DNA of 64,000 nucleotides from Cerioporus squamosus. Lineage: Eukaryota; Basidiomycota; Agaricomycetes; Polyporales; Polyporaceae. This document shows positions 9,652 through 25,627 of this stretch, piece after piece. Numbering within the stretch: the stretch's first letter is position 1; each line of letters starts with the position of its first letter. The DNA lies in assembly GCA_022592435.1 (NCBI GenBank), contig JABYQS010000186.1:1-64000 (forward strand). The letters are read 5' to 3'. The notes below the pieces were generated by a model. The model was not told where the DNA came from. It saw only the letters and a program-made list of their open reading frames with translations, and did no database searches. Position numbers and translations under genes: made by a program.

Positions 9652-9869
9652 CTACTAGATCGAGTATCCCTGTGTACCACCCAAAACGCTAACGAGAACG
9701 GCAGATGCCCTCGGCGAAATGTAATCTCCCCTCCCCACCTCACCGAGATTAGTCCGTGTGTGTCAACACGATGTATACTGCGACGCTGGCCTTGCGCTCT
9801 TCGGAGCACGAGCCGGCGGACACGGTGTAACCCGCCAGGGCAGGAGGGCCCTCTGGTGGGCCCCAGTTT

Positions 9870-12800
9870 ATGTCTGGTACGTCCGCTCATTTGACTAACC
9901 CCCAACTCTTAGACTATCCCTTCAACATGACAAGTACAACTATATGCAACAACAACTCACTGCGACCGAAAGCGCACGGCACGAACAAGAACAGACACGG
10001 ATTTTGCGCCTCACCCTTCTCCGGAGGGGCGTTGGGCGATCCTGCGGCCCAGCAACCCGAGGACGGAGAGGGTGCGACGGACAGCGGGAGCGACGACGGT
10101 TGTGTCTGTGGTGTACTAGCCCCCGGGCCCTCGTATGCTGCAGAAACGACCTCGTACGCAACGGTCTCAGAACGAGACCGTGCCAGTGCAGACAGCACTG
10201 TGAAGACTGTACACTCAGTCCGACGCTGCCAGGGTGGCAGCGTCTCAGCACTCTGGGGAAACCTAAGTCTGTACAGCGACCCCGAATGGGTTGGCCATAC
10301 CAAAACTGCACGCGATTGCAGTGAGCAGTGTTGTGACAGTCCGACACTGGATGCCGGGCTAGCTACAAGGGACAAGCCACCGGTACCAACCCATGACGAG
10401 ACAAGGGGGAAATCCGATCACGATCGCGAGGACGCCGACCGCTGTCCACTAAGACTGAGAGGTGGCGCAGAGCCGAACCGGGAAGCACGTCGCGCAGCGG
10501 GACGAGCCGCGAACCGCGACTCGATGCGGATTGGAACATTAAACATAAATGGCTATGGGCGCACAGAGCCAGGGCACCCTGATAACAAGTGGGGAAACGT
10601 GCATCGAATGATGCGCAACCACAAACTGGCACTACTGCTGGTGCAGGAAGCGCACCTCACGGATGAAAGGGTACAGCACATCGAGAAGTTCACTGCAAAC
10701 AAACTGAAGATATACCACTCCTCACATCCAGACCAGCCAACACAGAAAAATGGGGTGGCTGTAGTGCTGAACAAACGCCTACTACACACCACGGGCGCGC
10801 ACGCAGAAACGGTCGTACCGGGCAGGGCGATGCAAGTCAGCATACCATGGCAGAAGGACGAGGTGATACGGGTGCTATGTATATACGCGCCGGCAGCGAA
10901 CGATACAGAACGTAAGGAGTTCTTCGACGAGGTCAGGGAGTACTACGAGTCCCACCCAGACTCTCCTACCCCACACCTGATGGCTGGGGATTTCAATAAC
11001 ACAGAGGACGCTTTGGACCGTGTCCCAGCGCATGCAGAACCTGAGGCGTCAGTCGAGAACTTGGACAACCTGAAGAGCCGTCTCGGCCTCATGCTGGTGG
11101 ATGGCTGGAGGGCAACTTTCCCCACCACGAAAGCCTTCACTTTCCAGCGAGCGGCAGCACTGTCACGACTCGACAGGATCTACCTGACTGAAGAGCTCTT
11201 CCGAACAGCACGAGCATGGCAACTAACAGAGGCAGACCTACGAACAGACCATAGCATGGTCTGCGTCGACCTTGTTCGCGAAAAGACACCCGAACTGGGC
11301 AAAGGGAGGCCGGTCTTCCCAGGACACCTGCTAGGGGATAAGAAACTCGCACAAAAAATGAAAGAGCGGGGAATACAAGCACTAGAGGACGTACGAATCA
11401 TGCGAGCGACAAACCTGCGGTCAGAAACGCACAACCCCCAGACAGTCCTTGCCTCTCTCAAGAAGGACTGGATGGCAATGGCAAGGACACGGGAACGACA
11501 GATCGTCCCTAAGCTCTTACGCGAGATCCTCACGCTGGAAGAAGAAGTACGCACCGTATCTAAAAGCCAGGTGATACCGGACGCGGAACGCATAGCGCAT
11601 ACCGCGGCTCTGACCATGCAGATCCGCGAACTGAAACAGAAAAGGGTCAGCCAGCTCAAGTGCAAAGCGCGAGCCCGCCACAGACTGGAAGGAGAACGAC
11701 CCACCAAGTACTGGACCGGTCTGCACCGAGAGGTGAAACCGAGGGATACCATGTACGCGCTTGAGCGCACAAATATCTCGAGCCCCGATGGGGCACCGGT
11801 CTATGTTGAAGACACCCCGGGGATGGTGAACGTAGCAAGACAGCACCATGTTGACCTGCAGCGAGACGATCCCAGGGCGAAGCCCCAGGAGGAGCGCGAA
11901 CGCGATATTGAAGTCGCCCTGGAGGCGATCAATGTAAGCATCTCCGAAGAGGAGCAAGAAGAGATGGGCGCACTGATTACATACGACGAATGCGAGATCG
12001 CCCTACAATATTCCAAGACGGCCTCATCCCCAGGACTAGATGGGATAACATATGAGGTCTGGAAGGAACTGAATAGAAGGTACATAGAGGATGCAAAGCA
12101 CCCGAGCCGGCCGAAGTTCAATGCGCTCGAACTGCTGCATGCAACTTTCAATGATGTACAGAGCCATGGTGTAGCGGAAACGTCTGGCTTCACCGACGGA
12201 TGGATGTGCCCCCTATACAAGCTCAAGGGAGACAAGACAAAGATCGCGAATTATCGCCCCATAACTCTATTGAATACAGACTACAAACTGCTCACAAAAA
12301 TCCTCGCACTGAGGTTGGCAACCGTCGCGCCGGACATTATACACCCGTCGCAGGCAGGGTTTGTACCTGGGCGCAAATTGCGGGACCAAACCCAGTTAGC
12401 GAAACTGATGATAGACTGGGCAGAGACCACAGAAACCAACGGCGCAATCGTCGCACTTGATCAAGAGAAGGCGTATGACAAAATTGCACACGACTATCTA
12501 TGGAGAGTGCTCAGTAAATTTGGAGTGCCGCAGAGCTTTATACGCACAGTCCAGTCCCTGTATGCGCACGCACACACCTCGGTCATGGTGAACGGAGTCC
12601 TCAGCAAACCGTACAGAGTGTACCGCGGAGTCCGACAGGGTGACCCCATGTCATGCCTCCTGTTTGACCTGGCCATCGAACCACTCTCTGCGATGATTCG
12701 TCAGTCGAACCTGAAGGGGTTTGAGGTGCCAGGAAACCTACAGGCACTGAAAGCGACGCTATTTGCGGACGACACCACCGTATATTTGGCCGCGGAGGAC

Positions 12801-15359
12801 GACTTCGCGGGGCTCCAGAACATCCTGGACACTTGGTGTTCGGCTGCGAAGGCGAAATTCAACATCAGTAAAACTGAAATTATCCCCCTCGGAATGCCAG
12901 AATACCGTGAACAGATGGTCTCGACGTACCGGAGCACAGGTTGCTGGCAAAACTACCCTGCGCATGTGAATATCGCAGGTGACGGGGAGCCTGTACGCAT
13001 CCTTGGAGCCTTCGTCGGAAATGGAGTAGAACAGTGCGAGGTTTGGACGCCGACCCTTGCAAAGCTCGAGGGGGTACTCGAACGATGGAAGCAGGGAATC
13101 TCCACCCTAGAAGGTCGGAGACACGTCGTGCAAATGTTTATAGGAGGGATGACGCAGTTCCTTACCGACGTGCAAGCGATGCCGGTACAAGTGCAGAAGC
13201 GACTTGAGCGGATCCTGCGGAAATACTTGTGGAATGACCGCGTGGTGCCCCCTGTAAGCCTTGAACACGCACAAGCCGACTTTGAGCGAGGAGGCTTGCA
13301 GATCCTAGACATTGAGTCACGCAACGAAGCAATAGACCTGATGTGGGTGCGCTCGTACCTGCACTACGGGGAGCACCGCCCGACGTGGGCATACGTAGCG
13401 GATGACATTATGGCACGAACTGTCACGACAGACTGTGTCGTCCGCGCACCCGAGCTCCGAACTAACCCACTTCTGCAACATTGGTGGCCGAAGACCTCGG
13501 CACTACCGAAGTACCTGCAACGTATGCTTAAAACGAGCATGAAGTATGGGCTGCGGCTGGAGGGACTTGCCTTCTCGCGCGAGATACTGCGCGCCATGCC
13601 CATGTGGTTCCATAACCAACTCGACCTCCCAGTGGCGAAGCAACTCGCTCGGACCTCCATGGTGGTGACGTGCCTGACGGAAAGGCATCAGCTGAAAACT
13701 GTCGGGGATTTTGAAGCCTTCGTGCTAAATTTCCATGCACCGGGCCACCTGCGCTACGCGTCGTGTAGGTGTGCAGGGTGCGAGTTTGCCCGGCTCGGAG
13801 CTGGCTGCATGCGACCGCATGCCTGCGCGGCACGCGCACGAGAGTTCTTGGACGCCCTCCCAGATAAATGGGACCCTCGGGGCCTCCATCCTGCTGATTA
13901 CGAGAATGAGCTACACGACGAGCTGAAAGAAATCGGTGCAGACCTGGGAGATGGGCTGGTGCTGTTTGACCGCCGCATCACGACAACCGGCCTACTGGGT
14001 GACGCTTTCCGCACGTTCACCTACGGAGAGGTGTGCAACCGCCTCCCAGACATGACGGCCTCAACGAGACGAGGAAATGTATGCGTGCTGGCGACAGACG
14101 GATCCTGTGTAAACAACGGGCGAGCGGACGCCAAAGCAGGAGCTGGTGTGTTCTGCGCAGCGGACGGTAACCTGAGCAAGTCGATTCGTCTGCCTATGCA
14201 TATGCTGCAGTCAAACCAGACTGGCGAGGCGGTAGCAACACTTACCGCGACACAAACAGCGAGAATAGACGTCCCATTGGTGGAAGTGACGGATTCTAAA
14301 ACTGTGATGAACTCAGTAACAATCTGGAGAAACCGTCATGAGAACCAAGGTTTCCTCCTGCATAAGAATACGTCAATAACCCAAGCGATCATCGGCGCGA
14401 TGCGGTCCAGGAAAGCCGGGACATACCTGAAGTGGGTCAAGGGCCACAACGGGCACCATGGCAACGAGATGGCAGACCAACTCGCAGCGCAGGGTGCAGC
14501 ACGGGACATCGGGGACGCTGTGGACTTATCAGTACCGGTGGAACTTAGAACGACCGGGTGCAAGCTCACCTGGATGTCGCAAAAACTGGCGTATCGGGAG
14601 ATAAGACGACAAAAGCAATGGACCCTAGAACTGAGGACGCGCACTTCGGGGAATATCAGACGAGTCCTGGACGATATGAAGTTAGTGTTTGAACAACCAC
14701 TGATCGAAGCGCAGGTCTGGAGGTCGATACGCACCAAACATGTGTCGCGCGAGTGCCGGCAGTTCCTGTGGATGACCATCCACGACGGCTATATGGTCGG
14801 CCATAAATGGCTACGAGACAAGATGTCTGCAGAAATGCAAGCACGGGCAGTGTGTCAGCGGTGCGCTACAGTTGAGACGATGGAACACATACTGTTCGAG
14901 TGCGGCGCCGTGGGCCAGGAAGCAGTCTGGAAGCTTCTTGCGGAAGTGTGGGCCAGGACGGGAATGCCGAGGCGGGAGATAACCTGGGGTACCGCCCTGG
15001 GCGCGGCGTGTGCCACGTTCGAGCGCGAAGACGGCAGCCGTGCTGTCGCAGCCGAAGCGCTATGGACCATCCTGGTGACCGAGTCGCTATACTTGATCTG
15101 GAAGCTGCGATGTGAGCGAGTAATCCAAAATGATGGAGAAAACACGTCCTTACCGGAAGTGACCAGGCGTTGGTACGCCACCATGGATCGCCGTCTCGAC
15201 CTGGACAGGTGGTCCTGTGCATCGTACTTGGGGCGGAGAGCGCTCAAGGCGAGGACGATAGCGAGTATCTGGGAGCCGATACTCGAAGCGCGGGAAAGCC
15301 TCCCACGCTACTGGGTGACGGACAATGGGGTTTTAGTGGGTATTAAGCGGGGGCGTTGA
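9870..15359 (+). CDS. LINE ORF2: AP endonuclease - reverse transcriptase - RNase H
   Basis: Polyprotein of 1829 residues that nicks the target and performs target-primed reverse transcription. The first ~218 residues are low-complexity and unassigned. The AP-endonuclease domain (~219-470) shows LNING, QEAHL, GDFNN, SRLDRIY and TDHSMV. The RT domain (~690-1000) shows SSPGLDGITYEVWK, NYRPITLLNTDYK, GFVPGR, ALDQEKAYD, RGVRQGDPMS and the catalytic FADD near residue 966. RNase H (~1405-1545) has the acidic set in ATDGSC, GEAVA, VTDSKT and GNEMADQLA. A C-terminal C-x2-C-x8-H-x4-C motif (CQRCATVETMEHILFEC, ~1661) is typical of this LINE group. There are no in-frame stops, so the enzyme appears intact. 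Confidence 0.96.
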   Translation: MSGTSAHLTNPQLLDYPFNMTSTTICNNNSLRPKAHGTNKNRHGFCASPFSGGALGDPAAQQPEDGEGATDSGSDDGCVCGVLAPGPSYAAETTSYATVSERDRASADSTVKTVHSVRRCQGGSVSALWGNLSLYSDPEWVGHTKTARDCSEQCCDSPTLDAGLATRDKPPVPTHDETRGKSDHDREDADRCPLRLRGGAEPNREARRAAGRAANRDSMRIGTLNINGYGRTEPGHPDNKWGNVHRMMRNHKLALLLVQEAHLTDERVQHIEKFTANKLKIYHSSHPDQPTQKNGVAVVLNKRLLHTTGAHAETVVPGRAMQVSIPWQKDEVIRVLCIYAPAANDTERKEFFDEVREYYESHPDSPTPHLMAGDFNNTEDALDRVPAHAEPEASVENLDNLKSRLGLMLVDGWRATFPTTKAFTFQRAAALSRLDRIYLTEELFRTARAWQLTEADLRTDHSMVCVDLVREKTPELGKGRPVFPGHLLGDKKLAQKMKERGIQALEDVRIMRATNLRSETHNPQTVLASLKKDWMAMARTRERQIVPKLLREILTLEEEVRTVSKSQVIPDAERIAHTAALTMQIRELKQKRVSQLKCKARARHRLEGERPTKYWTGLHREVKPRDTMYALERTNISSPDGAPVYVEDTPGMVNVARQHHVDLQRDDPRAKPQEERERDIEVALEAINVSISEEEQEEMGALITYDECEIALQYSKTASSPGLDGITYEVWKELNRRYIEDAKHPSRPKFNALELLHATFNDVQSHGVAETSGFTDGWMCPLYKLKGDKTKIANYRPITLLNTDYKLLTKILALRLATVAPDIIHPSQAGFVPGRKLRDQTQLAKLMIDWAETTETNGAIVALDQEKAYDKIAHDYLWRVLSKFGVPQSFIRTVQSLYAHAHTSVMVNGVLSKPYRVYRGVRQGDPMSCLLFDLAIEPLSAMIRQSNLKGFEVPGNLQALKATLFADDTTVYLAAEDDFAGLQNILDTWCSAAKAKFNISKTEIIPLGMPEYREQMVSTYRSTGCWQNYPAHVNIAGDGEPVRILGAFVGNGVEQCEVWTPTLAKLEGVLERWKQGISTLEGRRHVVQMFIGGMTQFLTDVQAMPVQVQKRLERILRKYLWNDRVVPPVSLEHAQADFERGGLQILDIESRNEAIDLMWVRSYLHYGEHRPTWAYVADDIMARTVTTDCVVRAPELRTNPLLQHWWPKTSALPKYLQRMLKTSMKYGLRLEGLAFSREILRAMPMWFHNQLDLPVAKQLARTSMVVTCLTERHQLKTVGDFEAFVLNFHAPGHLRYASCRCAGCEFARLGAGCMRPHACAARAREFLDALPDKWDPRGLHPADYENELHDELKEIGADLGDGLVLFDRRITTTGLLGDAFRTFTYGEVCNRLPDMTASTRRGNVCVLATDGSCVNNGRADAKAGAGVFCAADGNLSKSIRLPMHMLQSNQTGEAVATLTATQTARIDVPLVEVTDSKTVMNSVTIWRNRHENQGFLLHKNTSITQAIIGAMRSRKAGTYLKWVKGHNGHHGNEMADQLAAQGAARDIGDAVDLSVPVELRTTGCKLTWMSQKLAYREIRRQKQWTLELRTRTSGNIRRVLDDMKLVFEQPLIEAQVWRSIRTKHVSRECRQFLWMTIHDGYMVGHKWLRDKMSAEMQARAVCQRCATVETMEHILFECGAVGQEAVWKLLAEVWARTGMPRREITWGTALGAACATFEREDGSRAVAAEALWTILVTESLYLIWKLRCERVIQNDGENTSLPEVTRRWYATMDRRLDLDRWSCASYLGRRALKARTIASIWEPILEARESLPRYWVTDNGVLVGIKRGR

Positions 15360-15441
15360 TACGGTACCTTCGGGTGCTGTGGATGACGCGCCCCCGCTCT
15401 GAGTCCCACACTTCGTGCGTAAAAGCATTCCCTCATGGCAA

Positions 15442-15541
15442 GGGACCTAGGTCCCTGTCCCGATCCTATAAAAACCTCTAAACTTGTTAGTGACCGGCGC
15501 ACCCGGTCAACCCCAGCGCGCCCGCCCAGCACTCGCTGGGC
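15442..15541 (+). promoter_or_regulatory. Three stem-loops in LINE 3' UTR
   Basis: Within 100 bases lie a 14-base perfect palindrome GGGACCTAGGTCCC (15442-15455), a 7-bp stem TGACCGG/CCGGTCA with a 5-base loop (15491-15509), and a 7-bp stem GCCCAGC/GCTGGGC with a 4-base loop (15524-15541). In LINEs, 3' UTR structure can be the recognition site for the element's own reverse transcriptase; that role is inferred here. Confidence 0.65.
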
Positions 15542-15597
15542 AGAGCAGTCTGATGTGCCTCCGGGACGATGATAGCTCAGGGCATATGTGCTCCGCC

Positions 15598-15615
15598 AAA
15601 AAAAAAAAAAAAAAA
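15598..15615 (+). other. LINE poly(A) tail
   Basis: Eighteen consecutive A bases end the element directly before the second copy of the target-site duplication. The last two may belong to the duplication. Confidence 0.92.
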
Positions 15616-15627
15616 GATTCTCTCAGT
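15614..15627. repeat. Target-site duplication, 3' copy
   Basis: Second copy of AAGATTCTCTCAGT, immediately after the poly(A) tail; matches 7526-7539 without mismatch. Confidence 0.88.
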
Positions 15628-16101
15628 CATGCAAGCGTGCGCAATCTGTAAGCGGGTTTTGGTCAACGGCCCTGCCCCTACTCCCATGGGAAACCGATGA
15701 CCTTGATATGCTTCCGTATGCATGTAGTTATTGTAATCAAGTGTATGGCAACGACTGCGGGCAAAGAGTGTGTGCATAATAGTATGAATGTATGCAAGTC
15801 CTCGACGGAGCTTTCAAGGAGTCGATCATGCCGAAGGTCCACTCCGTATATAGCAAGCTAGACGCTCTTATACTACGTACGCTCTGCTTCTGCTCCGCAT
15901 GGTCATACCGCAGCTCCCGCAAGCTTGCACATCACATTTCCAGCTCTACATCCAACCCGCCCGGGCCGCACTTGAGTATGTCTTTCCAGAGCATTGAAGA
16001 CACACACGGCACGGAGATGACGGCATCAGCGGGGAGTATATGAAGACCCCTGATACCTCTTTTCGGCATTTCCCGGAGCCGCCCTCTTGTCCGGGCGGCG
16101 G
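15628..16101. other. Spacer between LINE and the helicase/DUF6589 unit
   Basis: 474 bases with no recognisable gene. At its right end 16078-16084 (GCCGCCC) and 16093-16099 (GGGCGGC) can form a perfect 7-bp stem with an 8-base loop, ending three bases before the inverted repeat begins. Confidence 0.5.
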
Positions 16102-16178
16102 TTAGGTTCGGAACAAGCCGCCATCTCCGAAACCAATTTCGAGCTCCGCTCGAGCCTTCGGAGAAGGGGCTTGCTGCA
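16102..16178 (+). repeat. Left terminal inverted repeat of the helicase/DUF6589 unit
   Basis: Outer block 16102-16119 (TTAGGTTCGGAACAAGCC) and inner block 16162-16175 (AGAAGGGGCTTGCT), separated by about 42 less conserved bases that also contain a CCTTCG shared with the right end. The first five bases resemble the fungal telomere repeat TTAGGG, possibly by chance. Confidence 0.75.
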
Positions 16179-16550
16179 AAGTCCGGGATTCCTTGAGGAT
16201 CTTCGCGGCGATGTCGCGACCGTCCTCGGTCCCGTCTGTCAAAGAATAATACATGTTTCGATTACTCAGATGCTGGGCTACGTGCCTATGAAGTTTTTGT
16301 GCCGAGAGGGGGGGTGCTGAAGGTGTGAGACATGGTACAAGTTGAGCCATGTCTGTCCTCAGCTCGAGTGCTGCCAAAAAATCCGTCAGATATTCGTATC
16401 TCATTCCACATATTCCATACTCTATAGATACATTGGTAGGCCTCTGTGAGATGTGCCTGCGAGCTTTGATCTCCATCCTGTGAGCCTTGCGATGGTGAGA
16501 GGTCCCGCACGCTCGGTGGCTACGAGGAACATGTCGTGTAGGCGCCCAAA

Positions 16551-16600
16551 ACGCGTCGCGCGCGTTCAGGCGCGTGAGCGCGTCGCGTGCGAGAGCGCGA
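16551..16600. repeat. CG-rich subterminal block, left
   Basis: Alternating CG tract with repeated CGCGTCGCG-like words, including ACGCGTCGCGCGCG at the start. It lies just upstream of the helicase ATG and mirrors, in inverted orientation, a block upstream of the DUF6589 gene. ACGCGT is also the core of the fungal MCB cell-cycle element; regulatory use is unproven. Confidence 0.55.
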
Positions 16601-16632
16601 CTTGCCTCACACTGTCACCGTCTCCCTCCCGC

Positions 16633-19471
16633 ATGGCCTCTGCGGCCCCGGTCACTCCTCCTTCACGCTCAACCACTCTTCCCAGCACACCCTCCCGCGC
16701 GCTTGAGACTCCTCGCCACCGGAAGATCACACAAGATGCTCTCCTGCAAGGCACCAAGCCTCTGACCCCGCCCTCAAGCCAGCCACTCTCGGAGCGCGAC
16801 TGAAGAAGGCCCTCAAGCTCACCTTCGAGCCGGATCCGTGGCAGCTGGAGCTCGTGTCAAGACTTCTACGCGGGTTCGATGGAATCCTGTGCGCAGGGAC
16901 GGGCTATGGCAAGAGCCTGGTGTTTGAGGCGCTGGCGGTACTGGGAGGTCCGGGGTGTGTGGTACTGGTGATCAGCCCTCTCAAGGCCCTTGAGCGAGAC
17001 CAGGTGCGCCTTCTACGTGCTTAAGCTCACTGTGCTCGCTGACAATGATTTCCAGGTGCGCCAGGCCGAAGTGAAGGGCATCAAGGCTGTCATGATCAAT
17101 GAGGACAATGCGCACGAGTCTGGCGTGTGGGAGATGGCCCGCAAGACAGCACAACTCCTCTACTTGTCGCCTGAGATGTCGCTGAGCGACGGGTTCGCAA
17201 AAATATGGCGCGATCATACGTTCCAGGACCGCCTCGGCGCCGTGGTCATCGATGAGGCACACTGTGTCGAGGAGTGGGGTGACACGTCTTTCCGAGGGGA
17301 ATACCGCGAACTTGACGTGCTGAGGCACTACACTGGGCAGGAGAAGCCGTTTCTCGCGTGTACCGCGACTTGCTCCACCCCCACTTTCGACTTCCTCTTC
17401 GACATGCTCGCGTTTGGCTTTCGTCCATTCTGGGGGCTCGATGTCGGGTGCGATCGGCCCAACCTTTTCTATGACATCCGCCCTATCGAGAACCAACGCC
17501 GGCCGGTTCTCGACATTCTCGACATCCTTCCTAGTCATCTTGACGCCACTACCGCACCTCGCGATGTCCCCAAGACCCTCCTGTACTTCAACTCGGAGAT
17601 GGCATGTCGGGAGGCCACAGAGACACTGCGGAAGTGTCTGCCGAGGCACCTGCGTAGTGTGGTGTACGCGTTTTCGTCGTCACTGTCAGAGAAGGCCAAG
17701 CGGCGCGATTGGGACGCGTTCGCACTCGGAGAGGTTCGCATTCTGTGCGCGACGGACGCAGCCGGAATGGGCTGCAACGTTCCTGACATCCGCTATGTCG
17801 TCGTCTTCCATCCACCTCCCAGTCTCTCAGTCCTCGCACAGCGCTGGGGCCGCGCCGGGCGTGATCGCACAACACCTGCAGTGTGCCTACTGCTTGTTCC
17901 CAAGTGGGCTTTCCGGCCAGAGCCCCAGAAGGCCATCGAGAATCCCGCCGTGTCGCGTGTCAAGGGAAAGCGCAAGCAGCCTAAGGGTGAGAACAAACAG
18001 TGGGCTAAGCAGCGTGCCAAGCTACCACGATCTCTGGAGGTGTTCATCAACAGCAAGGCCATTGCCGCAGCGGACAGTTCTGGCAGCAAGACAGGTGCTT
18101 TCGATTCGCTTTCATATCCTTGTCAGGTGACTGACATATTCTCTAGGGTGCCTGCATGCAGCATTGCGCATTGCGTTCCGCCCTGAGACACGCCTGAACT
18201 TGTTTCATTCCCTGGATGGCACTGCACGCCCAAAAATGGGTGCCCGTTCAAGCTCGATCGCCTTTGCATCCGCTTGGACTGAGCTGGACCTCGGGCGCAC
18301 ACCACCGCAGGACCGCTGCTGTTATGTCTGCCATCCGGAGCATCCTGACCGCCTCGTCGCAGCTGGAGCCGACGATCCACGCCTGCACGCGTTTGCGCGC
18401 GACTTCGTCCATCCTTTGGGTGCTACCCCTAGTCGACCTTCTTCATCTCTCTCTGTGAGGTCCTCTGGCTCTGCTGTATCGCGCTCTAGCAGTGTGGATT
18501 TTACGCCACTGGAAGGGGCTCACGTTGTGCCCAAGGCCATCCTAGCAAGCCTTCGCTCTCGTCTTCAAGATTGGCGTCACGCTCAGCAGGAGCGACATCC
18601 TGAGCGCGACTACCTGTACGTGCCTTGCGACGTTGACTTCCCTGACCGTCAGATCGACACTCTCGTCGCCAAAGCGGCCGCGTTCCTCAATCAACCGGAT
18701 GTCAGTGCGCGTGACGTCGCAAAGACAGTGAAGTGGGACTCGGCCAGCCCCACTGAACTGGAGGAGGTAGCAACGATCGTGTCTATGTGGCGTTTTGAAG
18801 CCGCTTTGTTGGCAACACCACAGTCTCAGCGCCGCAAAGAGAAGCGTGCACGCAGGGACATGGAGCCAGACGATAGACTACCTGCTCCCAACTTCACTCA
18901 GGACCACGAGGACGACCTTGACTCGGACTCGGACATGCCAGGCACGCCCCGAGCTGCCGTACCATCTGGCCCTTCAGAGGGCTTCCCTCCCACTTCATTC
19001 CCAGTGCCGCTTCAAGATTTGCTGGTCCCCGCGACTCCTCCTTCCAGCGCCGCTGTGTCGCCTTCTCCATTTGGTTATGGTTATGCCTTCCCAGTCCCGC
19101 ATCCCTTCTTTCGTAGAAGTTACGTCCCCTCACAGTTCAATCCGGCATACAGTGCTCCTGCTCATCAGAGTGCCACGATCTCTCAGCCGCAACATCAGAC
19201 TCCCATGCGTTCCGAGGCCCAACCCTATCAGAGTCCGACAACCTCCCAGTCACAGCATCGAACTCCCTCACACCCTCAGTCGCAAAGCATGTATCAGACA
19301 CCATCATACCCGCGCTCACATGTCATATATCAAACCCCCGTCTACGCTCCGCCCCCGCTGCAGTGGCTGCCTGTACAGCACTCCGTTTTACCATTGTCTT
19401 TCCCCGTGCATCCTCCTGCTACACCTAGCCCTTCATCCAACTCTCCACGCTACGCGTCTGGTTCGCAATAG
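16633..19471 (+). CDS. RecQ-like ATP-dependent DNA helicase (mobile-unit gene)
   Basis: Superfamily 2 helicase, RecQ-like. Exons 16633-17003, 17056-18094 and 18147-19471; with one base added at ~16800 the total is 911 codons. The ATG at 16633 is my choice; an in-frame ATG at 16492 is possible. Motifs in order: PDPWQLELV (motif 0 Gln), AGTGYGKSLVFEAL (Walker A), VISPLKALERDQ, VVIDEAHCVEEWG (DEAH), FLACTATCST, KTLLYFNSE, ILCATDAAGMGCNVPDIRYV and QRWGRAGRD (Arg finger). A C-terminal cysteine pair (CCYVCHPE) follows, then a Pro/Ser/Gln-rich tail. The frame breaks just before the helicase core (SERD, then LKKALKL), consistent with one missing base. It is convergent with the DUF6589 gene. Its likely job is DNA unwinding during movement of the unit, by inference. 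Confidence 0.88.
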
Positions 19472-19534
19472 TCTCCTACTAATTGGGGTCAATCGTACAA
19501 ACCTGCAGCAATCCATTTGCGACTTACTTACGCT

Positions 19535-22434
19535 CTAGAAGGGTTCCATACCCGTGTGGAATTCGCCGCCTCCTCCCAGGGCCCCACAGCCGGAGTCCTC
19601 GTCCTCATCACCATACAGGTCGACATAGTTGTCCGCATCCAAGACATTATGCGCAGTTGTGTTGAAAGCACTGTCACTGTCAAGGCGCGTGTCGCGTGGT
19701 TCCTCCGATTCGTGTTCCTCACCTCTAGCAGGGTAGCCCAGTGCAGGATCGAAAGTTGTCGCTTTCAGCCACTCTGTGAACTTCCCATTCTGCCAGATGT
19801 CGGCCCCAGTAGCGAGAACGTCCACGATTGCAGAGCGGCGTGTGGCTGATCCCTTCTTGGCCTTGGCTTCGAGGACGACATGTTGTCCAATGAGGTGCGC
19901 CTGTCTGTTCCGCATTCCCTCAACCAAGACGCGCATGTCATGCTCGAATGCGATCTCCTTCGAACGCCGACCACGGTCCGGGTCTCCGAAGAAGCCGGCC
20001 ACCAAGTGCGACACCTCGCGGAATGCTTCTACGCAAGCCGATCCTTTTGCCATGATGTACTCGATGGTAACTCCACTCCCGCTGGCGATGAAGACGCGCT
20101 TTGCAATGTCCGTGAGCTTGAGATTTTGCTTGCCATAAGATAATGCTTACCTTGACCCAGAAATTGCATTGTTCTAGATAGAGATCTGCGGCAATCCAAC
20201 GGCGCGGACACCCTGAGCGGTTTACAAACCAAGCCCGCTCGAGTGCACAGCGAAGATCCTCGGTAAGCTCGTACTTCCAGGTGATGAGGATCTCCGCACA
20301 CTCCCGGGCGTAATTGTGCTGACCAGCTCCTCGAAAGGACAGGGCCCAATACTTCAAGACCCGGAGCACAATACCGGCATCCGCGGTACTGACTGCATGT
20401 TCAAACAGGAGGAACAGTAGAGTGTCCCGCATGAAGTATATGTCATGCGCATACCAGTCGTCCCCGGACACCTGAGCTTGGCGGGCCTCGTCCACCCGCG
20501 TGAACTTCTTCTCGATGTGCTCCGAGAGCCGCACAACATCGTCGAATGATGGTTGCCAGTCCCGGAGTTCAGACCAGCCTTTCATTCCCTCGGTAGCCCT
20601 GTTTCCGAGTCAGGTCAGTCTTCTGTCTCTGTGGAATCGCCCAACCAACAACACTTACATTACGCGGTATAGAGTTCGCCCAATGAACCCATGACGGATG
20701 AGAGACTTTGCCGCAGCGTAGTTTGGCTTGTGTGCGTCCCATGTGCGTCGCAGCTTCCCCTTGTCCGATGCCAGCGATGCAGGGTCGCTGATCGCGTTGC
20801 CGAAGTGAGTGCGCATAATCATATGTGTGGCATTCAGCGCGAAATGGAACAGTGCGCTCAGCTCCTTCACGTATTCCAACATTGCATGGAATCCACATCG
20901 TCGACTCGCTCACGCCGTGCTGCTCGAAGGTTGCTCGAGGTAAGCCAATCGCCCTCGATTATGCGCACCTTTGATGCCCATTCTTCCTCTGACAGCGTCG
21001 ACCTCTTCTGCAGCTCTTCAAGCACCTTGATGATGCCCTTCTTGGATCCCTCGTTTACGTTCAATACACCGAATGGTCGCACGTCGGACTTCTCCGGAGG
21101 CAGGGGCCGATCCTTGGGCATACTTCTACTGATCTTCTCAAGCATCTCTCCTCGACTCGCCCAGCTCGCGCTCCCAGGGGTGTACCGCACGATAATTTCC
21201 GCGATGAGGCAACGGAATGCCTGTTGAATGAATGCAGCATCCTCCGCACTAGGGCGAATATCGGCGAACGTCGCACTCGCCCGCTTTCCCCGCAGGTTCA
21301 GCATGGCCTCGAGGTCTTGTGCTTTGTCAGTGTCGCCCGGAATGCCGATGACTGCGGTATTCGTAGCGTGGATCATGGTATGACGGTTAGTGACTCGTTC
21401 TTGGAACTTTCGCAGGTAGATATTGATATTGTCGAAGATGATGAACCAGAGAGATGCACTTGTGATGAGTGCGATGGCTAGTTGGATAGCATCTTCGGAG
21501 AGCCGCTCCTTTGCGCGTTCCACGGTAGTGCTAGACACGCACAGCCCAATATTGCTGAGCATCCCAAGCACACGCTCGCTCGTCCCAGAGATCTTGAAGA
21601 ATATGCCCAACGGCAGTGCAAGCACGTTTGTCGCCCGGTTACGCACAAAGGTGCACATGCATATTGCGACTATGATGGCCTGTCCAACACAGATGTACGT
21701 ACAGTGAGTCTCCAGGGCGCGCATACCGTCAAGGTGCAACTCACGAATGTCGGGTTCCGAGAGAAGCCTGGGTACTCTTCCTTCCATGCAGTTCCACCCA
21801 TTCCTCCGTCGTCGTCCTCGACCGGATCATCATCAGACCGCTCCGACTCCGGCCCACTCCTCTGTGCGCGGCTGCGAGCACCCCCTTGACCAGGCTCCAG
21901 ACCCTCTGCTCGTGCCTTCTTGCGACGATACTCATTCGGGGCCATAGTGAATGCGTACAGGTATCCGTATGTGAACGGGGCCTTCTTCTGGATGATCTTC
22001 AGGATTTCCGTGGGATTCATAAGAGCACGAATGGTCGCCATCGTGAGTGTCTTCATCTGGATGCGGAACCCCGGATGACGAATGATGTGATCGCTCTCCT
22101 GAACCGCGAGCTCCCGTGCACATGGCTCAACAAGAAGGCGATGGAGAAGCTTTCGGCTTTTGGGCCAGCGAGTGTGCCACAACTGGTAGACTGTGGCAGG
22201 CAGGAAGACCTCGTCAGGCTTCTGTGATGTCTTGTTGTGACCGAGAAAGATGCCGGCGCGCGTTTTCACTGATTTGATATCAGAGGAGAAGATGAAGATG
22301 AGAAGGCGACCAATAGGGAGCGTGAGGAAGATGATAAGGGAGACGACGAGATGCAGCCTGTCTTCGAGCTGGGTAGGTACATTAGCTCCAAGTGCAGCTT
22401 GCCAGAATGCGGCGGAGTACTTGAGGTCGGCCAT
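19535..22434 (-). CDS. DUF6589-domain protein, putative transposase of the unit
   Basis: Large protein of the agaricomycete DUF6589 family, function unknown. Exons 22434-21745, 21679-20659, 20598-20151 and 20098-19535; adding one base near 20880 gives 907 residues. Conserved stretches include LGIFFKISGTSERVL, FIIFDNINIYLRKFQERVTN, RPFGVLNVNEGSKKG, EGDWLTSSNLRAARR, FRGAGQHNYARECAE, LYLEQCNFWVKRVFIASGSG and KGSACVEAFREVSH. The N-terminal 230 residues end in a Gly/Arg- and acidic-rich linker (SESERSDDD region). The order Asp (FDNIN, ~313), Asp (GDWLT, ~475) and Glu (LEQCNFW) would suit a DDE/RNase H-fold transposase; this is only a hypothesis. Other than the single missing base there are no stops, so the gene may be functional. 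Confidence 0.85.
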
Positions 22435-22540
22435 GGTAGCAGCTCACAGAGCCGGCCCCTGTCGAAAATGTTTCTGAAAATCCGTTGCATTTGCCTCCGC
22501 GAAGCTCAGAGTGCGGAAGCAAAGTGTACGCTGCTCCGCC

Positions 22541-22581
22541 ACTCACGCGCGCGCGCGCGACGCGACGCGACGCGGACGCGT
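22541..22581. repeat. CG-rich subterminal block, right
   Basis: ACTCACGCG followed by alternating CG and four CGACGCG-like words, ending GGACGCGT. Read on the minus strand it contains GCGTCGCGCGCG, the same word found at the left block, so the two are inverted relative to each other. It lies about 110 bases upstream of the DUF6589 ATG. Confidence 0.55.
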
Positions 22582-22945
22582 CTGTCACAAATGTCACGGA
22601 GACGTTACTACGGTCACCTTCCCGCCAGCCTCTCCGACCTACGCAGTTCACCGCAACACTGGCACATCCATACGGTCTAGAATGTACATGGGTAGTATCT
22701 ACGAGCTTGTGTGCGACTTGGTGCGACTCCGGGAACCAGTCTTGCAAGTCTGTAGAGCCAAAGGTCCTCGAGACCGTGACCTGTGCTCGCAGCTTAGTAT
22801 CTCTGTCATTTGGCCCTCAATAAATCCCACAAAAATACGAGCACGTACCGTATCATCCTGGTTACATGGCTATTTGAACGCGCGTTGACGCGGCGTGGTG
22901 ACGCGTGCATGCGAAGTCGAAGTAGAAGGTGGATGAGCGCCGGCG

Positions 22946-23019
22946 TTTGGAGCAAGCCCCTTCTGGCGAAGGTGCGCTGCGAAGCGAGCGCCGGAGCAAG
23001 GGGCTTGCTCCGAACCTAA
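22946..23019 (-). repeat. Right terminal inverted repeat of the helicase/DUF6589 unit
   Basis: Inverted counterpart of 16102-16178. Inner block 22951-22964 (AGCAAGCCCCTTCT) and outer block 23002-23019 (GGCTTGCTCCGAACCTAA). This copy is itself palindromic: GGAGCAAGCCCCTT and AAGGGGCTTGCTCC form a 14-bp stem, which the left copy only partly retains. Confidence 0.75.
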
Positions 23020-23447
23020 GGAATATTTGTCTCGAGGCTCTGTCAGAGAGAGGACCTTCGCGGTCAGGACTGGTCGGGATCCGGAGCACAAGCCGACACA
23101 TGTCCCCGGGTCGCCAGGGGAGTTTGAAGAGAGCTTGGAGAGTTGTGGTAGACAAGACAAAGGCGCATGCGTACATGTGACCTTCCGCCGACAAAAGTTG
23201 CGTTGACGGGGAATTGCGATGTTGGTTAACCACCTCCGAGCCTGGACCGTGACGAATACTTACCACATACAAACACACTCATGTAGTGCACTATTAGTGA
23301 GCAACATGGCCTCCTTATTCCCAGGTGCCTTCGACACGAGAACGATTCAGAAGCCATGTGTTGCTAGCTATCTATGATGTTACAATTTACCACACAAACT
23401 TCCTCAATCTCATTTCTCCTACATTGTGCACTTAAACCGGCCATCGT
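23020..23447. other. Spacer between mobile unit and ATIC gene
   Basis: 428 bases of 3' flank of the purine gene and mobile-unit border; no gene or RNA seen. Confidence 0.5.
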
Positions 23448-25627
23448 TCAGTGGTGGAAAAGACGAAGCGAGGTGTGCGCGAACACCATATCGTGTTCGT
23501 CCGCCGCCTTGATACACTCTGCATCCATCACGCTCCCGCTCGGCGCAGCCAGGTACTTGACACCGCTCCTGCGTGCCCGGTGCACGTTGTCGGGGAACGG
23601 GAAGAACGCATCGCTCGAGCACGCAACGCCGTCGAGCTGCTTCGCGTGGGCGGCACGCTCCTCCTGCGTGAGGGGCGCCGGGACCTCCTCGAACATGGAC
23701 TCCCACTGGGCCTTCTCCCCGCCCTCGAGCGGCTCCGCGGCAACGAAGAGGTCGATCGCGTTCGCCTTCTCGGCGCGCTTGACGCCCTTCTTGAACGGCA
23801 GGGCGAGCACGCGGGGGTGATGACGAAGCCACCAGAGGTCGGCCTTCGTTCCGGCGAGACGGGTGCAGTGGATGCGCGACTGCTGGCCAGCACCAATGCC
23901 GACAATAGCGCCGCGGTAGGCATAGGCGACGCTGTTCGACTGAGTGTACTTGAGCGCGAGAGTTGCGACGATGAGGTCGGTGAGGGCTTGGTTAGTCAGC
24001 TGTAGACCAACGCGTGCTGGCGTCAGCTACAGTCGTGAAAAGCGCAAGCAAGGTGCCCACCTCCTTGTTCTTCGTTACGATATTGGTGAATAAGTTAGCA
24101 TCAATCTTAGCGTCGTTGCGCTTCTGCTGGAGAGACACCCCGTACACCTGCCGAGTCTCGATCTCGGCGGGCTTGTAAGCAGGGTCGATCTAGGGGACGT
24201 GAAGAGTGCATGAGCAACGACAGTCATCCATGACATCACCACGACTCACCTGAAGGACACAGTACTTGCCGCCCTTCTTTTTGGAAAGAACATCAAGTGC
24301 CTCCGGGGAGTATCCGGGTGCGATGATGCCGTCGGAGACCTCTCGCGAGATGATACGCGCAGTGGCAAGGTCGCAAGGTGCGGAGAGAGCGATGAAGTCG
24401 CCGAAAGAGGACATGCGGTCCGCACCACGGGCGCGAGCGTAGGCAGATGCCAAAGGAGTGAGAGGCTCCTTCAGGTCATCTACGCCGTATACCTTCTTCT
24501 CCACATCGTTGAGCTCGATGCCAACAGCAGCACCTGCTGGGGAGACGTGTTTGAAGGAGGCGGCCGCAGGAAGGTCGAGAGCCTCAGAGAGCTCCTTAAC
24601 AAGCGCATACGAGTTGAGCGCATCGAGGAGGTTGATGTACCCAGGAGAGCCGCAAAGCGCTGTGAATAGAGGTCAACGACTTGGGACTACGGAACCGTGT
24701 AACGGATGGCCACTCACCCTTGAACGGAAGCTCGCCTTCGGTCACGTACGCCTGAGCAGGCTTTTGGTGGGGTTGGCGCCATAGCGCAAAGCCATACGCT
24801 GCACAGGTCCGGCTAGCTTCTCCTTCGGCAACTCGGAGGAGGCGTATTGTTCCCTGAAGTATCCGCTGATAGCGTCATCGTACTTTGCGGTCATCTCAAA
24901 GGCCTTCAATGCGAGCTTGCTCCTGATCGCCTGACCGACATCGCCCTTTCCGGACTTCCATGCCTCGATGAACTCAGTGTAGTCGGCTGGGTCGGACAAG
25001 ACAGAGACCCGCTCGTGGTTCTTTGCCGCGGCGCGGAGCAGAGTGACGCCACCAATGTCGATCTCCTCAACCGCGTCTGCAAGAGTGCACCCGGGTTTTG
25101 CGATCGTGGAGGTGAACGGATAGAGGTTGCAAACTACAATTGAGATGGGAGAGATGCCTTGTGCCTGCAGGTCCTTCTCGTCGGAAGGGATAGAACGCGC
25201 TAGGATGCCTACCATGCATGAGGTCAAAATTGGCCAGATTGTCAACCCGCACGGAGCAGGAAACGATTTCAAGGATTGTGATCTAACCGAAACTCACCTC
25301 CGTGCACAGCTGGGTGCAGCGTCTTCACCCTTCCTCCGAGCATCTCCGGAGCCTTCGTGATGTCCGCAACATCCCTGACGCACGATCTCGTATCCGCAAG
25401 TCCCTGCAAAATACAATATAACGACTCACTCGATAGGAATACCTGCCTCCCGGATTTTCTTCGCAGTGCCGCCCGATCCAAGGAGTCGGACGCCCGCGCC
25501 GTGGAGTCCTGTCGCGAGCTCGAGCAGGTTCGTCTTGTCGTAGACGGATAGCAACGCTTGTGTCGCGTCAGTACGTGATACTATCACGAGTGTATCCGCG
25601 CAAAAGCCCACCGATTGGCGCAGACAT
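23448..25627 (-). CDS. ADE17: Bifunctional AICAR transformylase / IMP cyclohydrolase
   Basis: Catalyses the last two steps of de novo purine synthesis (AICAR to FAICAR to IMP), cytosolic. Seven exons: 25627-25612, 25556-25430, 25374-25298, 25208-24718, 24659-24250, 24189-24061 and 23999-23448. The first exon is only 16 bases (MSAPI plus one base). The MGS-like cyclohydrolase domain has [30 protein letters not shown] and [16 protein letters not shown]. The transformylase domain has [56 protein letters not shown] and the C-terminal SSDAFFPF and LRLFHH. Alignment to human ATIC is nearly continuous. The frame breaks at a GGGG run (24769-24772); one more G restores it and gives 600 residues, matching the family length. 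Purine auxotrophy would follow if the break were real, so a sequence error is likelier. Confidence 0.95.

Follow-up and report, generated by a model that had tools for sequence, protein, structure and literature searches.

The Academ transposons that encode a helicase were named AcademH in Kojima 2020 (Mob DNA 11:15) and make target duplications of 9 or 10 bp (PMC10045372; for this and the other papers cited, we refer to excerpts of their text). Their copy numbers are described as low where they occur in Basidiomycota, Ascomycota, and Mucoromycota (PMC10799480), and Academ elements are said to have a DDD/E transposase (PMC9587614). A link between the helicase and the duplication length was suggested from AcademH versus AcademX (PMC10045372). 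In KolobokH, which is given as found only in fungi, the RecQ helicase lies downstream of the transposase, and Kolobok elements have 4-bp TTAA duplications and 5'-RR and YY-3' termini (PMC9587614). Here, we analyzed 64,000 nucleotides (the window) of contig JABYQS010000186.1 from Cerioporus squamosus. It holds a 6,916-bp unit at 16103-23018, where a RecQ-like helicase gene converges with a DUF6589 gene inside inverted ends. The unit is almost certainly a DNA transposon, and very probably a degenerate cut-and-paste element of AcademH type with DUF6589 as its transposase.

The helicase and DUF6589 genes move together

At the genome level, the PF20231 (DUF6589) profile gave 43 matches grouped into 18 loci, the window helicase gave 22, and the Helicase_C model 88. 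These searches score only the best candidates, and the locus counts are lower bounds. A helicase lies within 3 kb at 14 of the 18 DUF6589 loci: 12 were paired by the window helicase (C8, C126, C501, C623, C146, C734, C246, C412, C88, C51, C157, and C97) and two by Helicase_C only, both at C171. The other four are fragments (C19, C446), a contig edge (C743), and C174, where the helicase is about 9 kb off. An earlier note on this DNA asked whether the two genes are neighbors genome-wide, and by these counts they mostly are; it also held that DUF6589 genes without a helicase would speak against the pairing, and these are the minority.

Evidence for joint movement comes from C734 (6,242 bp) and C246 (6,187 bp). 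They share 6,158 bases and differ at 26 of 6,184 aligned positions, plus 61 gap columns. The similarity ends at the unit ends, and both the flanks and the duplications differ. Near-identical copies in unrelated flanks mean that the helicase and DUF6589 genes move as one, as the earlier note had proposed.

We delimited 11 paired units, leaving out one C171 locus with no left end found (C171a), the other with ends not searched (C171b), and C51, which reaches a contig end. Seven of the 11 present perfect 9-bp target duplications (Table 1). No duplication was seen in C97 and C126 nor, by eye, in C88 and C412. For C8 and C126, the terminal motif was used to locate the ends, with two right-hand candidates for C8. 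All target duplications in the family are 9 bp, and none is TTAA. As a control, the first six units were scanned together with 30 mismatched flank pairings. C734, C246, and C157 each had an exact 9-bp duplication beside 12/14 matching terminal bases, compared with 0/30 mismatched pairings. The terminal match of C146 (9/14) was equaled by 2/30 of them, and C88 and C412 reached only 7; C501 (9/14), C623, and C8 were outside this control. The repetition of DUF6589 in the genome is accounted for by mobility, in line with the earlier note.

The window ends themselves recur. Genome-wide, the left 77 bp match seven times and the right 80 bp 14 times, the window's own included. At C667, both ends (97% identical on the left, 99% on the right) enclose 1,294 bp that align with the window at 16103-16779 (78%), 16809-16935 (87%), and 22554-23018 (86%), with the middle missing. 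This copy is an internally deleted derivative, and it has a target duplication (CTACAAAGG/CTACGAAGG, 8/9). The earlier note named multiple copies with the same ends as support; there are relatives with related ends, but no second full copy of the window unit was seen, since the nearest other helicases are only distantly similar (see below). Left-type and right-type window-family ends also lie 173 bp apart, with the same letters around them, at C327:19181-19418, C246:18081-18318, and C75:71029-71266. A miniature element was rejected there because both ends point the same way.

Empty sites, which the earlier note would have taken as support if seen in related genomes, were found within the host genome for one helicase-only relative, in other copies of the repeat that it interrupts. 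This relative, at C410, is 3,872 bp long, has a perfect 9-bp duplication and a helicase match with two internal stops, and gave no DUF6589 match in the PF20231 genome search. It is inserted in a hAT-like repeat (15303-19744) with its own 8-bp duplication, ends TAGTG..CACTA, and at least nine other copies. When the joined C410 flanks were used as query, nine other places matched straight across the joint (81-92%); C327, C246, and C75 are among them with the same score and probably go back to a single event. A tenth place, C101, matched only in two pieces off the joint. The two copies read letter by letter, C57 and C90, have a single 9-bp target at the joint, which is the empty site. One of the other repeat copies, at C446:19652-20222, has one of the two C446 DUF6589 fragments on either side.

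DUF6589 as a candidate DDE transposase

Databases list DUF6589 only as a protein family without an assigned function. In the window, PF20231 matched the minus strand in three separate frames (best of three exons, E 3.9e-41). The predicted fold of a DUF6589 relative (P0001) resembles the DDE transposases Hermes and P element, with an RNase H-like core and a large helical insert ahead of the last E. A D-D-E triad is conserved across lineages, and the Pfam model of PF20231 does not include its first D. The candidate catalytic residues are D327, D486, and E743. E700 was discarded as the catalytic E: it is invariant in a 60-row alignment, but it is replaced by Y at 3/18 loci in the host genome, so we prefer E743. 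From this modeled fold and the triad, DUF6589 would be a transposase of DDE type.

Two other searches added little: a viral structure library gave nothing useful for the fold (best E 0.053), and solved structures searched with the protein sequence gave a single match (E 0.49) that we take as chance. The family is found in many mushroom genomes (among the best 120 of 346 proteins in a first search). A search with the 60-row alignment retrieved 50 proteins, all 50 with PF20231 and none named from outside fungi. DUF6589 is not mentioned in the open-licence literature searched, where PF20231 occurs only in an unrelated optics paper; since no paper there names it, identifying DUF6589 as an AcademH-type transposase may be new. 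In UniRef, one DUF6589-domain protein, P0034 of Ganoderma boninense, carries the name pre-mRNA-splicing helicase PRP28, which is probably an annotation error.

Placement among known families

The KDZ elements (Kyakuja and Zisupton) are DDE transposons, and the hAT and P-element families have 8-bp duplications and are not known to carry a helicase gene. The predicted fold of P0001 may recall hAT and P, with its core and the insert before the last E, but the paired units have 9-bp duplications and a helicase, and the four DUF6589 proteins scanned show no Pfam sequence match to them; membership of hAT was ruled out by duplication length. KDZ elements also occur in Agaricomycetes, but Kyakuja has 7-bp duplications and no terminal inverted repeats, and Zisupton 8 bp (PMC12730594). 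The relatives of our unit have 9 bp and terminal inverted repeats, and four DUF6589 proteins gave no Pfam KDZ match. Here too, duplication length ruled out membership.

KolobokH shares a fungal host and a RecQ helicase with our unit, as far as the excerpts of PMC9587614 go. TTAA duplications and 5'-RR/YY-3' termini would be expected, but the relatives have 9 bp, none TTAA, and ends that begin with a pyrimidine. In the 60-row alignment, G518 and H521 of a GLFH motif are invariant; if H521 is the H of C/DxxH, which is only an assumption, DUF6589 has G instead of C/D three positions before it. KolobokH membership was ruled out by duplication length, and we give it a negligible chance.

AcademH, compared by its published description, is likewise a DNA transposon with a helicase gene; its duplications of 9 or 10 bp and its presence in Basidiomycota also agree. 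The duplication length fits (9/9 in the seven paired units and C410, 8/9 in C667; none in the window copy, C126, C88, or C412), and so does the helicase, found between the window ends and at most DUF6589 loci. The DDD/E feature is consistent with the conserved triad and, with reservations over Z and rmsd, with the modeled fold of P0001. By these features, set against AcademH by description and not by sequence, the unit likely belongs to it. The earlier note took the combination of helicase and DUF6589 for a new family, which does not hold, as helicase-encoding AcademH elements are in print (PMC10045372, PMC10799480); the unit is most likely of this known kind.

Some results would suit other readings of the unit. 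The window copy has flanks GGCGGCGGT/AGGAATATT, which match at 2/9 positions, and no target duplication. The closest other helicases in the host genome, at C410 and C778, are 58% and 47% identical to the window helicase. Besides, four DUF6589 proteins scanned against Pfam matched no transposase model, KDZ and hAT/P included. The lack of a duplication and the distant helicases would suit an ancestral, immobile gene pair that lies between inverted repeats by chance. This is very improbable: the window ends recur together in the deleted C667 copy with its duplication, seven of the 11 delimited paired relatives have perfect duplications, and C734 and C246 are near-identical in unrelated flanks. 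Lacking a duplication, and with a broken frame in each gene, the window copy is probably dead. The missing Pfam match, together with a comparison to AcademH by description only and the absence of the name DUF6589 from the open-licence literature searched, would also suit a new DDE superfamily outside Academ that acquired its RecQ-like helicase independently and happens to share the 9-bp duplications. We consider this unlikely, as the helicase, the duplications, and the basidiomycete host all fit the accounts of AcademH in the excerpts cited, and a second such fungal superfamily would be a coincidence.

The helicase and the proposed mechanism

The window helicase matched DEAD (E 1.8e-6) and Helicase_C (E 2e-14) on the plus strand. 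Its best NCBIfam matches are RecQ models, TIGR01389 (1.4e-32) and TIGR00614 (4.4e-32), both below curated cut-offs, and its sequence matched solved RecQ5, RecQ, WRN, and BLM chains. A protein search retrieved 6,385 proteins. Among the best 120, the RecQ zinc-binding domain (PF16124) is absent from the first 51, whose named proteins we take to be from Agaricomycetes; it is present in the later ones, mostly bacterial-type RecQ at about 28-36% identity. A spliced reading from the 16707-frame start across two presumed introns gives 886 stop-free residues. The frame with the likely start codon stops at 16803, and the helicase carries on in another one. No obvious intron accounts for this break or for the one in the DUF6589 gene near 20890.

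The pairing is kept across lineages. DUF6589 pieces are 16-29% identical between lineages and helicases 25-36%, and the protein distances of both genes correlate over 11 loci (r 0.966; reached by 0/10,000 permutations; r 0.96 without C51). These are 11 of the 14 paired loci; C246 was dropped as a near-copy of C734, and C171a and C171b were excluded because their helicases lie outside the stretches compared. As four lineages largely drive r, the correlation reflects the same pairing kept per lineage rather than fine-scale agreement. Ten of the 14 pairs are convergent and four divergent (C8, C126, C501, and C623), and the divergent ones form one lineage in the protein-distance comparison. Such variable orientation could be expected if a DUF6589 transposon had picked up the helicase as a mere passenger, with no role in transposition. 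We regard that as doubtful, since the pair was kept across these divergent lineages and the distances of both genes track each other; lasting co-divergence would be unusual for a passenger gene.

Under the AcademH-type reading, the DUF6589 protein would bind paired blocks of the terminal repeats, bring both ends together, cut through its RNase H-like D-D-E site, and join the ends to the target with a 9-bp stagger, which would produce the 9-bp duplication. Cut-and-paste with this stagger, rather than copying, is suggested by the 9-bp duplications and the predicted DDE fold; the fold and triad also point to the residues that would cut. The helicase would be an accessory enzyme inherited alongside the transposase. 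Guided by its retention, our guess is that it most likely unwinds the DNA of the transposon ends or of the joint, or aids repair of the 9-nt gaps.

Terminal repeats and other features

Among 40 inverted-repeat pairs in 15800-23400, the first two are 16102-16129/22992-23019 (28 nt, 82%) and 16162-16186/22940-22964 (25 nt, 88%). Read from the letters, the outer block matches at 17/18 bp and the inner one at 14/14, as the earlier note had described. That note ran one base too far at each end (16102..23019); relatives with duplications begin with TAG and end with CTA, so we excluded the outermost T/A pair. Its converging genes stand, with 63 bases between the stop codons (19472-19534) and not 64, while the inner blocks are only similarly spaced (60 bp from the unit end on the left, 55 bp on the right), not equally.

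At the window ends, an inverted inner copy of the outer block (18 bp on the right and 11 bp on the left, one mismatch each) was equaled by 0/100 single-base shuffles. The same was true for both ends of C734 (left 18/18) and C246. We read these blocks, from their sequence, as putative paired transposase binding sites. C157 lacks the inverted inner copy in the same shuffle test, and one end each of C146 (8/100 shuffles) and C410 (7/100) is no better than chance, so foldback ends were dropped as a family hallmark. Among nine paired units, 16/18 ends open with YAGNYTC; both exceptions are TAATCTC, at corresponding ends of C734 and C246.

Table 1. Features of the unit in the window, and perfect target duplications of its relatives
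Feature	Position	Strand	Details
Left end	16103..16178	+	outer repeat TAGGTTCGGAACAAGCC; inner block AGAAGGGGCTTGCT at 16162-16175; short foldback of 11 bp, 1 mismatch
RecQ-like helicase gene	16633..19471	+	likely introns 17004-17055 and 18095-18146
DUF6589 gene, candidate DDE transposase	19535..22434	-	PF20231; introns present; triad D, D, E kept; frame broken near 20890
Right end	22940..23018	-	outer and inner blocks mutual reverse complements (18 bp, 1 mismatch); can fold back
9-bp duplications			C734 ACGGGGGCT; C246 GTGATCATG; C157 ACCCAACCC; C146 TAGTACGAG
9-bp duplications (continued)			C501 GGGTTATGC; C623 CCGATTAGG; C8 GGGACAGAA

The window also holds a non-long-terminal-repeat retrotransposon that covers at least 9831-15615, with an unbroken frame of 1,842 amino acids (9831-15359) that contains endonuclease, reverse transcriptase, and RNase H domains. 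The earlier note placed this long interspersed element directly beside the unit, but its poly-A (15598-15615) ends about 490 bp before it. About 430 bp past the right end, an AICARFT/IMPCHase (PF01808) purine enzyme frame lies on the minus strand (23448-24026). Elsewhere in the genome, C174:31320-42518 (contig end 42618) has a helicase and a DUF6589 gene of the same kind about 9 kb apart, possibly through nested insertion or extra cargo. C171:4500-17856 holds two DUF6589 loci in inverted orientation, both accompanied by a Helicase_C gene. They share 99.76% identity over 4,505 bp and represent either a real duplication or an assembly palindrome.

Significance

Where annotations count DUF6589 and adjacent helicase genes among those of the host, they can be transferred to transposons. 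More tentatively, and with a small chance of being right, DUF6589 would form the catalytic core of a DDE transposase that is widespread and whose pairing with RecQ-like helicases outlasted deep divergence and one or more flips of gene order. Were it unrelated to Academ transposases, mushrooms would have a separate superfamily of DNA transposons that depends on a helicase. The near-identical C734 and C246, with their perfect duplications, provide material to address the reason for a RecQ-like helicase in a eukaryotic DNA transposon, and whether it sets the duplication length.
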